Source: Stratiformator vulcanicus
Lineage (GTDB): Bacteria; Planctomycetota; Planctomycetia; Planctomycetales; Planctomycetaceae
Direction of reading: 5' to 3'
NCBI RefSeq assembly: GCF_007744515.1
Contig: NZ_CP036268.1
Location: forward strand, 1,445,640 to 1,509,639
Length of the DNA stretch: 64,000 bases
Shown in pieces: positions 4,737 to 8,119 of this stretch. Each line of letters starts with the position of its first letter. Position 1 is the stretch's first letter. The notes beneath the pieces were generated by a model that ran no database searches, was not told the DNA's origin, and saw only the letters and a list, made by a program, of their open reading frames with translations. A program made the position numbers and the translations under genes.

Positions 4737-5195
4737 CGGATCGCCGCATTGTCCAACCGAGCGGGTCGTCCGATGGCATCGTTAGCACATGTGCTCAATG
4801 ACGCGGCATGTCGGCTTGGTCGGCAAGTTGTGTGGCGGGAGCAACGGTCTCGCCGCGAGCCGACCGTTCTTAGGAACTCGTCAAAATGTCGGGGGACAAC
4901 CCGAGTTCACGTCGGTCGCACGTTGGTAAATCTCCCAGAGACAAAGCAACTCGAAAATTTTATCGGGAAAAATCCGATCCGTTGGCCCGGAATATGTATC
5001 CCGTGGACGCAGAAAGTCTTTATGGTCCTGCCTTGGGAAGCCTGATGGCCTCCCTTCACTGCCTTCCTGACAACGCACTCGTTTCTTCGACATGGGCGGC
5101 GACCCATGCTCGGGAAGAAGAGCTGGCTCGCCGAAGTCCGCAATAGAAGTCCACAAGAATTGTTTCTGTCCGCGACCTACGCGGACCTACCTCGC
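4737..5195. other. Intergenic region, divergent
   Basis: This gap of 459 bases separates the glycosylase gene from the kinase gene. Short frames exist on both strands but none has convincing composition or a recognisable domain. It should hold the divergent promoters; I could not pick a confident pair of hexamers. Confidence 0.4.
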
Positions 5196-6257
5196 ATGGC
5201 TAAATTCCAGAAAGTTTCCGATCGGCCGCGAAGCCTTGGCAGCTTCGAAAGGGGAAACGCGCGCGTGGACGGCGACTCAACCGATCTGACGCAGACGATT
5301 CAGATTCAGCCATCGGTTGCCTCCTCGGTGACCTCGCACTGCGGCGCGCAAGCTGCAACCGATGCCGCGGCGAAGCAGAAAGACACGGTCTGCGGTCGTA
5401 GCGACGTCGAAACCGTCGACAGTCCGGCGCGGTTGCCGATTGTCCCGGGCGTCAACATCAGCCATCGGATCGGGCGCGGATCGTGTGGTTCGGTCTACGC
5501 CGCCCGTTTGGTCTCGAACGACCGCGCCGTATGCGTGAAAATCCTCTCCGCCTCATTGGCGGACGGCCCGATCGATCGCCGCCTTAGACGGGAAGCCTTC
5601 ATTACCGCGATGCTGTCTCACCGACACATCGTGCGGACCGTCGACTTCGGCGAAATCTCTCGTATCCCCTATCTGGTGACCGAACTGGTCCCCGGATTGT
5701 CCTTGGATCGACTGCCGCCGATCGGGATGGCCGGCATTTGCGAAATCGGTCGTCAGGTGTCCTCAGCACTTGCCGCGACACACCGCGCGGGCGTGGTTCA
5801 TCGCGACGTCAAACCGGCGAACATCGTCGCCTCGTTGGACGGCAAGGGATTCCCGCGGGCCAAGTTGATCGACTTCGGTCTCGCCCGATGCCCGGGCGAT
5901 TCCGACGATGAAGACGGCTTGATTCGGCCGCGGCAGTCGCTCGGGTCTCCGCCCCATGTCTCGCCGGAACAGATTTCGGGACCGGTCGTCGTCGATGGTC
6001 GAGCCGACATCTACTCGCTGGGTTCGACTCTGTTTGAAATGTTGACCGGTTCGCCGCCGTTCGGTTCGACCGTGCCGGAGACGTTGACCCGCAAGTGCCA
6101 CGAATCAGCTCCGCCATTGCGTTCGCTGCGGCAGGACGTGCCGCCCGCGTTGGAACGGCTCGTCGCCGCAATGCTAAAGCGCAAACGTGTGGACCGACCG
6201 GCCGAAGCGTCCGCGGTAGCGGCCGAACTCGCCGATCTGGCCTCAAGTCTCCGCTGA
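5196..6257 (+). CDS. Soluble Hanks-type Ser/Thr protein kinase
   Basis: A 353-residue kinase from the ATG at 5196; the frame is open upstream to at least 5106. After about 85 Ser/Thr/Ala-rich residues come the glycine loop IGRGSCGSV (92-100), the ATP-binding lysine in VKIL (Lys115), the catalytic loop HRDVKPAN (202-209), DFG (226-228) and SPE where most kinases have APE (256-258). YSLGSTLFEMLTGSPPF matches subdomain IX. The protein ends right after the kinase fold: no membrane segment or sensor domain follows, so it is probably cytoplasmic. Planctomycetes encode many such kinases. The substrate is unknown; the FHA protein at the left edge is one conceivable partner. Confidence 0.9.
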   Translation: MAKFQKVSDRPRSLGSFERGNARVDGDSTDLTQTIQIQPSVASSVTSHCGAQAATDAAAKQKDTVCGRSDVETVDSPARLPIVPGVNISHRIGRGSCGSVYAARLVSNDRAVCVKILSASLADGPIDRRLRREAFITAMLSHRHIVRTVDFGEISRIPYLVTELVPGLSLDRLPPIGMAGICEIGRQVSSALAATHRAGVVHRDVKPANIVASLDGKGFPRAKLIDFGLARCPGDSDDEDGLIRPRQSLGSPPHVSPEQISGPVVVDGRADIYSLGSTLFEMLTGSPPFGSTVPETLTRKCHESAPPLRSLRQDVPPALERLVAAMLKRKRVDRPAEASAVAAELADLASSLR

Positions 6258-6365: not shown

Positions 6366-6396
6366 TTGACTCTGAGGCCGGTACGCCGGTAATAAT
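6366..6396 (+). promoter_or_regulatory. Promoter candidate for the aroF leader RNA
   Basis: TTGACT at 6366-6371 and AATAAT at 6391-6396 are each one mismatch from the sigma-70 hexamers, but the 19-base spacer is longer than ideal. A start near 6403 would put the leader peptide start about 40 bases downstream and give an untranslated leader of roughly 285 bases before aroF. Confidence 0.4.
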
Positions 6397-6442: not shown

Positions 6443-6532
6443 ATGCACTCTCGAAATCGACAGATCGTCGTCGCGGGTGCTTGGTATTTTTGGTTTACCA
6501 CCGGAACGGTTCCGGGCCGGGGAGACGCGTAA
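6443..6532 (+). CDS. Putative aroF leader peptide with Trp-Tyr-Phe-Trp-Phe run
   Basis: A 29-codon frame from ATG 6443 to TAA 6530-6532. Codons 14-18 (6482-6496) are TGG TAT TTT TGG TTT, encoding W-Y-F-W-F: five consecutive aromatic residues using all three end products of the aromatic pathway, directly upstream of the gene for its first enzyme. This is what a transcription-attenuation leader peptide looks like (known for trp and phe operons). A ribosome stalled on these codons would cover the strand of the first hairpin that starts at 6501. A weakness is the lack of a clear Shine-Dalgarno sequence before 6443. The rest of the peptide has no obvious meaning, as expected for a leader. Confidence 0.72.
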   Translation: MHSRNRQIVVAGAWYFWFTTGTVPGRGDA

Positions 6533-6571
6533 CGACTTCCTACCACTGTGCGAAAGCAAGGCCCCGGAATC
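6501..6571 (+). promoter_or_regulatory. Alternative pause and antiterminator pairings of the aroF leader
   Basis: Segment 1 (6501-6506, CCGGAA) can pair with segment 2 (6510-6515, TTCCGG) as a pause hairpin. Segment 2 extended (6508-6518) can instead pair with 6560-6571, the left arm of the terminator, over about 11 pairs with one bulged C and one G-U. The two pairings exclude each other, and the second destroys the terminator. A ribosome held at the aromatic codons would mask segment 1 and favour the antiterminator; one reaching the stop at 6530 would mask segment 2 and allow termination. Pairings were drawn by hand; no energies were calculated. Confidence 0.6.
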
Positions 6572-6592
6572 ACGCGATTCCGGGGCCTTTTT
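6558..6592 (+). terminator. Intrinsic terminator (attenuator) upstream of aroF
   Basis: A perfect GC-rich stem, GCCCCGGAATC (6561-6571) with GATTCCGGGGC (6576-6586), extended by flanking AAG/CTT, has a 4-base loop and runs directly into five Ts (6588-6592). It lies 25 bases after the leader peptide stop and about 97 bases before aroF, so it would end transcription before the gene unless the antiterminator forms. Confidence 0.85.
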
Positions 6593-6688
6593 CGTTGGGC
6601 GATTTGCACAAGCCGATGTTCGGAACAATTTAGTCAATCCCGTTGGTGAAACCCGGCCGAGCCACACGACGGCCGACAGGAGTGAGTA

Positions 6689-7705
6689 ATGATCGTCGTC
6701 ATGAAGCGAGGCACGAGTGAGGAGGCGGTCAAAGACGTCTCCGGCCGCATTGAGGAAATGGGAATGAAAGCGCATGTCATCGTCGGAACCGATCGCACCG
6801 TGCTGGCGGCCGTCGGCAAGGAGAGCGAAACGCTCCGGCAAGAACTCGAGGCGCATCCGCAGGTGGAGCAGGCAATGCCGATTCTGGCCCCATACAAGAT
6901 TGCCAGTCGTGAAACCAAACCGGAGCCGAGCACCGTCACGGTCAAAAGTCTGAAGATCGGCGGTGGTCATATCGGAGTGATCGCCGGGCCGTGCTCGATC
7001 GAGAGCGAGTCGCAAATCTTCGAATCGGCCCAGCGCGTCAAAGAGTCGGGGGCGACGGGGTTACGAGGCGGGGCCTTCAAGCCGCGCACCAGTCCCTATT
7101 CCTTCCAGGGAATGAAAGAGGAGGGGCTGAAACTGCTCCAGGCCGCCGGTCAGGAAACGGGATTGGCGACCGTCACCGAAGTGATGGCTCCTCATGATGT
7201 TGACCTCGTCTGCCGCTACGCCGACGTTCTGCAGATCGGTGCGCGGAACATGCAGAATTACACCCTGCTCGAAGCCGTCGGCGGCGTCGATACGCCGGTG
7301 GTTTTGAAACGGGGGGCATCGGCGACGATGGACGAATTCCTGTTGGCGGCCGAATACATTCTCAACGGAGGCAACCAGCAGGTCATCTTGTGCGAACGCG
7401 GCATCCGCACTTTCGAATCGCACACGCGGTTCACGCTGCCTCTGGCGACGGTCCCCTATCTGCAAGAACGAACGCACCTGCCGGTCGTGATCGATCCGTC
7501 GCATGGAACGGGTGTCGCTTCGCTCGTGCCGCCGATGTGCCTGGCGGCTATCGCCGGCGGGTGCGACGGATTGCTTATCGAAGTCCATCCTGACCCGACT
7601 CACGCCGTCAGCGACGGTCCGCAGTCGCTGACGCCCGAGGCGTTCGACGATACAATGCGACGGGGTCATCAGGTCGCCGCTGCGGTTGATCGGAAACTCG
7701 GATGA
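6689..7705 (+). CDS. aroF: 3-deoxy-7-phosphoheptulonate (DAHP) synthase, type I beta with N-terminal regulatory domain
   Basis: A 338-residue enzyme that condenses phosphoenolpyruvate with erythrose-4-phosphate, the first step of aromatic amino acid synthesis. Residues 1-70 form the small ferredoxin-like domain ([10 protein letters not shown] at the start) that mediates feedback inhibition in the Thermotoga-type enzymes. The catalytic barrel has GPCSIES (100-106, metal-binding Cys102), [16 protein letters not shown], the GARNMQN and VVLKRG strands, and DPSHGTG. A good Shine-Dalgarno, AGGAGT, lies at 6678-6683. Expression is probably controlled by the attenuator just upstream. The last 37 bases overlap csrA on the other strand. 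Confidence 0.96.
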
Positions 7706-7869
7706 GAGAAGGGCTCGCCCGATGCGATCAGTTCGCCCCGACGGATCGGAATGTCTTCGGGCGCATCGATCGCTAAGGTGACCCGCCCGCCCGACGTGCG
7801 GACGACGGAAACCGTGATTCCATGCCCGATGACAATCTGTTCGCCCGACTTACGATTGAGGACCAGCAT
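7669..7869 (-). CDS. csrA: Carbon storage regulator CsrA, RNA-binding
   Basis: A 66-residue protein with the standard CsrA start MLVLNRKSGEQIVIG, the central VTLAIDAPEDIPIRRGEL, and a short variable tail. CsrA dimers bind GGA motifs in mRNA leaders and alter translation or stability. A GGGAG lies a few bases before the ATG. The 3' end runs 37 bases into the end of aroF on the opposite strand, so the two transcripts must overlap at their tails and there is no room for a terminator between the genes. Length and core sequence are normal, so I see no sign of decay. Confidence 0.95.
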   Translation of the reverse strand: MLVLNRKSGEQIVIGHGITVSVVRTSGGRVTLAIDAPEDIPIRRGELIASGEPFSHPSFRSTAAAT

Positions 7870-8119
7870 CCTTGCGCTCCCGAAGAGTGACGTTTTGATC
7901 TGAAAGCCCGTTATATGTTTTTATGTGCAGTGAACGCAAGTTCTGATTGGCGAAAAAGTTTTTTTCGTTCCGGCCGGCGGCGTGCGTATACTCACAGAAA
8001 TTCCGGCGGACTTGCGGGATAATTGATTAGATCGAGATTGAGAGATTCAACCGATCATTTGGTAGAATGTGCCCCCGGGCGACCCGGACGGTTTCAGCGT
8101 TTTTACGAGTCGATCAGCA

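Follow-up and report, generated by a model that had tools for sequence, protein, structure and literature searches.

Ribosome-mediated attenuators of the trp, pheA and pheST genes in Proteobacteria are built from regulatory codons in a leader and mutually exclusive 1:2, 2:3 and 3:4 helices with an intrinsic terminator; each reads one amino acid and lies before end-pathway or tRNA synthetase genes. The ilvGMEDA and thr attenuators each combine, in a single leader, the signals of several amino acids from a branched pathway. The aroF gene of C. glutamicum has a Phe-Tyr-Phe leader (PMC4046766), aroR, and is controlled by Phe and Tyr (PMC7356990); to go by its title, the paper of Neshat et al. 2014 (cited in PMC7356990) assigns aroR-aroF to ribosome-mediated attenuation. 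In Actinobacteria, a survey published in 2005 detected no conserved RNA structure upstream of operons for Phe or Tyr (PMC1262725), and a 2010 survey added Firmicutes to leader-peptide systems that had been known only from Proteobacteria and Actinobacteria (PMC2965389). Our literature search found no such element described in planctomycetes; a prediction in the comparative study Lopatovskaya 2010 is not excluded.

The DNA analysed here (the window, 64,000 nt from the planctomycete Stratiformator vulcanicus) carries aroF at 6689-7705 on the forward strand, encoding a DAHP synthase of type Ibeta (PRK08673 subfamily) as judged by profile matches (NF006421, 472.6 bits against a cut-off of 335; TIGR01361, 373.9 against 267.75). 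We hold with high confidence that the element in front of this gene is a working ribosome-mediated attenuator which reads the supply of Trp, Tyr and Phe and sets aroF transcription. The regulatory codons, exclusive helices and intrinsic terminator are those of the proteobacterial attenuators, although here they precede the gene for the first common step. As in C. glutamicum, a leader peptide with aromatic codons stands before a DAHP synthase gene; the phylum is different, the C. glutamicum run lacks Trp whereas W, Y and F occur together in 44 of the 50 runs found in this work, and the C. glutamicum enzyme is of type Ialpha, in contrast to the type Ibeta enzyme here. Several amino acids share one leader, as in ilvGMEDA and thr, these being aromatic rather than branched-chain or threonine. 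The Rfam amino acid leader families (Trp_leader and its relatives) gave no covariance-model match to the element up to E 5 in the window or E 1 in 15 relatives. The mechanism is of a known kind; what appears to be new is its occurrence in this phylum, the mixing of aromatic codons and the extent of the set described below.

All features of the element lie on the forward strand. A leader ORF of 29 codons (MHSRNRQIVVAGAWYFWFTTGTVPGRGDA) runs from 6443 to 6532, with its stop codon TAA at 6530-6532; the ATG at 6443 is the sole ATG, GTG or TTG start downstream of the prior in-frame stop. The codons TGG TAT TTT TGG TTT (6482-6496) encode the run W-Y-F-W-F, and in-frame aromatic runs are conserved at the orthologues. 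Both frame and run had been proposed in a first-pass annotation and are present as it gave them; the weakness it conceded, a leader start without a clear Shine-Dalgarno, is real, none being evident before ATG 6443 in the window sequence. In one genus group (g49), changes within the leader numbered 8, 28 and 54 at codon positions 1, 2 and 3, which clearly fits translation. No such bias was found in the other genus groups, and as the result over six groups is mixed it is not taken as proof that the leader is translated.

Five bases past the aromatic run begins a 1:2 hairpin (CCGGAA/UUCCGG, 6 bp, loop CGG; 6501-6506/6510-6515) with an energy of -6.4 kcal/mol alone. Segment 2 of the antiterminator (6508-6518) pairs, with one bulge, with segment 3 (6560-6571), which folding identified as the left arm of the terminator, common to both structures. 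The 3:4 intrinsic terminator (6558-6592), supported by folding and covariation, consists of 14 perfect pairs (6558-6571/6576-6589; 12 without two A-T pairs), a 4-nt loop (6572-6575) and a run of five T (6588-6592). The annotation had recognised the hairpin, the alternative pairing and a perfect terminator stem with five T, all of which stand; its figure of 11 bp for that stem was slightly too low. It had also proposed folding the RNA with part of it masked, and the outcome favours its reading. The unmasked fold of 6497-6595 contains the 1:2 hairpin and the terminator (-48.6 kcal/mol, z -3.9); when 6497-6506 is masked and the right arm of the terminator has yet to be made, the 2:3 pairing becomes the minimum (6507-6575, -27.8). 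Membership in the class of ribosome-mediated attenuators was judged by a leader ORF with a codon run for the amino acids of the controlled pathway, an intrinsic terminator between leader ORF and gene, and an antiterminator that uses, and so excludes, the left arm of that terminator. The window meets all of these. A 1:2 hairpin adjoining the codons was a further criterion; it is present in the window, with the weaker support across loci given below.

In the mechanism we propose, a ribosome would translate the 29-codon ORF while RNA polymerase transcribes the leader. With ample charged Trp-, Tyr- and Phe-tRNA it would clear W-Y-F-W-F, reach the stop codon at 6530 and cover 6508-6518; with segment 2 covered, segments 3 and 4 would pair and transcription would stop at about 6592. 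Were any one of these charged tRNAs scarce, the ribosome would stall on the run and hide segment 1 (6501-6506), so that segments 2 and 3 could pair, no terminator would form and aroF would be transcribed. Leader translation, stalling, the response to each amino acid and the coupling of transcription to translation are all inferred.

Conservation of the element was observed directly. Regions 5' of the DAHP synthase orthologues, taken from 59 relatives and 80 named contigs, were searched for two things: a leader ORF in which 5 or more of 8 codons are aromatic and, 10-110 nt further on, a strong terminator. Run and terminator occurred together at 50 of 104 DAHP synthase upstream regions, as against 0 of 1040 dinucleotide shuffles. 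When the class was sampled more widely, 72/118 regions had the element under strict settings and 84/118 under relaxed ones, with shuffles giving 0.0 and 0.2. Examples had already been seen when the thresholds were set, and related genomes are not independent; despite both, the gap from the shuffle null is very large. The strict search placed the element in 9 of 16 families of the class, and it was found at 8 of 20 loci in other classes of the phylum. In the window's own family the distance from run to terminator is mostly 54-64 nt, though the sequences differ. Some 30-40% of orthologues have no detectable element, whole small families among them. The prevalence is a lower bound: the aroF leader of one genome (G014) was missed by the script and found by a covariance model with E 6e-10.

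Covariation of the competing helices was also observed, in an alignment-free test in which one arm was swapped between loci over 5000 permutations. The 2:3 arms (z -10.4, 0/5000) and the 3:4 arms (z -19.6, 0/5000) covary strongly and the 1:2 arms weakly (z -3.4, 2/5000). The first-pass annotation had named a jointly kept run and terminator, and compensatory changes in the three stems, as what would support its reading; relatives have supplied the former, and the latter clearly for two of the stems. Taken singly, 40 of the 50 loci showed stronger 2:3 pairing than their spacer shuffles at p<=0.05 (39 of 50 when segment 3 was lengthened). The corresponding figure for the 1:2 hairpin, taken locus by locus, was only 4 of 50, and minimum free energy z-scores in 35-nt windows gave no signal for it (median z +0.36). 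It is the least conserved stem and may be dispensable, because a ribosome reaching the stop codon would, by inference, itself cover segment 2. The arms are made from different sequences at different loci, e.g. CCGGAA/UUCCGG in the window, CCUAC/GUAGG in L030 and CCUUCG/CGAAGG in L067, and outside the pairing arms the sequence between run and terminator is unconserved.

The mixed runs of F, Y and W fit an enzyme of the first common step, which is needed for all three products. Sensing of all three amino acids is nevertheless an inference from the codons, and the attenuator might instead answer mainly to phenylalanine, with tyrosine, the tryptophan codons being minor. Phe codons do dominate (F 180, Y 95 and W 68 over the 50 loci), five runs contain no W, and the C. 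glutamicum aroF leader is Phe-Tyr-Phe (PMC4046766). Against this, Trp, normally a rare residue in proteins, is found in 45 of the 50 runs, two of the five codons in the window run are W, and in one family (f2) the runs are dominated by WW. We regard a mainly phenylalanine-responsive element as possible but unlikely.

Other explanations carry little weight. An upstream kinase gene (5106-6257) is transcribed in the same direction and ends 300 nt before the hairpin, which might then be no more than its 3' terminator, with the aromatic run there by chance. It is extremely hard to reconcile this with a run and terminator that recur together at a fixed distance in dozens of loci and in none of the 1040 shuffles, with a terminator left arm that has a conserved, covarying antiterminator partner, or with the 12 of 31 named loci at which the nearest upstream ORF lies on the opposite strand (by a longest-ORF heuristic). 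In Firmicutes, leaders that control amino acid genes through a terminator are often T-boxes, and a T-box, a riboswitch or a site for an RNA-binding protein could in principle control the terminator here, the ORF being incidental. That is scarcely credible, as no Rfam family matched the window or the 15 relatives, models of the T-box and other riboswitches included, as only the pairing arms are conserved in the stretch from run to terminator, and as the codons follow the downstream pathway: aromatic before aroF, Leu before leuA and Ile/Val before cimA. It could also be argued that the leader peptide acts in trans as well, as peTrpL of S. meliloti does (PMC7298713), or that the ORF boosts aroF translation by reinitiation, which has been proposed downstream of short leader genes in Planctomycetes among others (PMC4833913). 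However, the peptide is unconserved outside the aromatic run, and in the window 156 nt separate the leader stop from aroF, too far when compared with the peak at 10-13 nt (PMC4833913). Neither addition seems at all probable, and attenuation by a stalled ribosome remains the preferred reading.

That the element controls entry into the shikimate pathway, as the annotation inferred, holds only in part. An attenuator does precede aroF, which is the sole type Ibeta DAHP synthase gene of the window genome; a second enzyme, of type Ialpha (G000:C1:4157996-4159015), has none, so the element controls one of two pathway entries in this genome. A type II DAHP synthase is absent from the window genome and was found in 1 of 30 relatives. 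Absence of the element from paralogous genes was observed: in the same genomes it was found at 0/30 second type Ibeta copies and 0/19 type Ialpha genes, and trpE gave 0/28. At loci such as L129, L137, L148, L150 and L151, the frame preceding the second type Ibeta copy has a PheA-like end, ...YLFFLDFEGH..., suggesting a putative pheA-aroF operon without an attenuator.

Trained on 21 Planctomycetaceae elements, a covariance model recovered aroF elements and also gave full-length matches elsewhere. Those before leuA have leucine-run leaders, e.g. MNQNLLLLQLLLITPGC, and those before cimA (citramalate synthase) have Ile/Val leaders, e.g. MPNTLINVGSQIGPITIVRIVVPGRCGLG. When tested directly, 19 of 27 leuA and 12 of 28 cimA loci had leader and terminator, with null values of 0.0 in both cases; the same device was sought at ilvB and found at 0 of 30 loci (null expectation 0.05). 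The antiterminator arms covary at both genes (0/5000 permutations for leuA, 3/5000 for cimA). In the window genome, leuA itself (G000:C1:1370262-1371743, locus L354) has the leucine leader MNEPPNSFNRLLGLLL followed by a terminator. Loci of cimA with Ile/Val leader ORFs and terminators are L316/L381, L319/L364, L386, L378 and L363; to our knowledge a cimA attenuator has not been described. One further match of the model, at G000:C1:2553427, is not an element, being a tRNA followed by a terminator, and matches in G001, G002, G003 and G049:C51 were rejected as they have no matching leader.

With its leuA and cimA versions, the aroF element is best understood as belonging to a set of attenuators. 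It is rather probable, though far from settled, that Planctomycetota hold an old, undescribed set of this kind, with W/Y/F leaders at type Ibeta genes, Leu leaders at leuA and Ile/Val leaders at cimA, some of them leaderless. Since the element recurs across the phylum and has Leu and Ile/Val versions, planctomycetes very probably control their aromatic, Leu and Ile/Val pathways through ribosome stalling on nascent mRNA, a reading that rests on sequence alone. The element predicts the mode of control of the planctomycete aromatic, leucine and isoleucine pathways, and it may supply amino-acid-responsive control elements for tractable planctomycetes, e.g. Planctopirus limnophila.

Attenuation needs a ribosome close behind RNA polymerase and so implies coupling in planctomycetes, where it has been questioned: a separation of transcription and translation has been reported for Gemmata, is disputed for Planctomycetes and is discussed in PMC5394234 and PMC5287468. 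If our reading is true, nascent mRNA is translated during transcription even in cells with a proposed spatial separation, and the need for a closely following ribosome makes the dispute testable. Squalene epoxidase was found in 4 of 5 genomes of genus g39 and in 0 of 8 other genomes tested. Gemmata is known for sterol synthesis, and on this basis g39, with its member G047, is probably Gemmata, an inference from gene content. This genus has no attenuated DAHP synthase copy, and G047 has leuA and cimA leaders with terminators.

Upstream of the leader a promoter-like site, TTGACT (6366-6371), 18 nt and TAATAA (6390-6395), was read from the sequence on the forward strand; it is weak and only loosely sigma70-like, and a consensus scan made no call at 6366-6395. 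Relatives have TTGACg-N17-TAgcaT at the corresponding place. At loci with the leader ATG no more than 33 nt from the run, a -10 box lies 5-8 nt ahead of the ATG in 14 of 27 cases against 1.7 expected, the form in these short-leader loci being CTTGcc-N16/17-CATAAT-N6/7-ATG. With a -10 box so close to the ATG, the leader ORF would begin at the 5' end of the mRNA. At L027, L030, L032, L043, L048, L088, L111 and others the box ends 6-7 nt before the ATG, and by their sequences these leader ORFs look leaderless. The window leader is of another subtype, with a longer 5' end and no -10 box 5-8 nt before its ATG. Planctomycetes have been inferred to make little use of Shine-Dalgarno sequences and to initiate in a leaderless or S1-type manner (PMC5397173). 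The ilvBNC attenuator of C. glutamicum (Morbach 2000, cited in PMC4046766) likewise has a leader peptide without a Shine-Dalgarno; unlike it, the planctomycete start is inferred from the position of the -10 box, at 14 of 27 loci, and the window itself is excluded.

Two features of the surroundings of aroF were also noted. In one relative (G004:C1:1007560-1009876), ilvB lies directly 5' of the aroF attenuator. Directly behind aroF in the window, a convergent frame on the minus strand (7705-7870) encodes a CsrA-like protein (MLVLNRKSGEQIVIGHGITVSVVRTSGGRVTLAIDAPEDIPIRRGELIASG), and csrA occupies the same place behind aroF in the relative L005.
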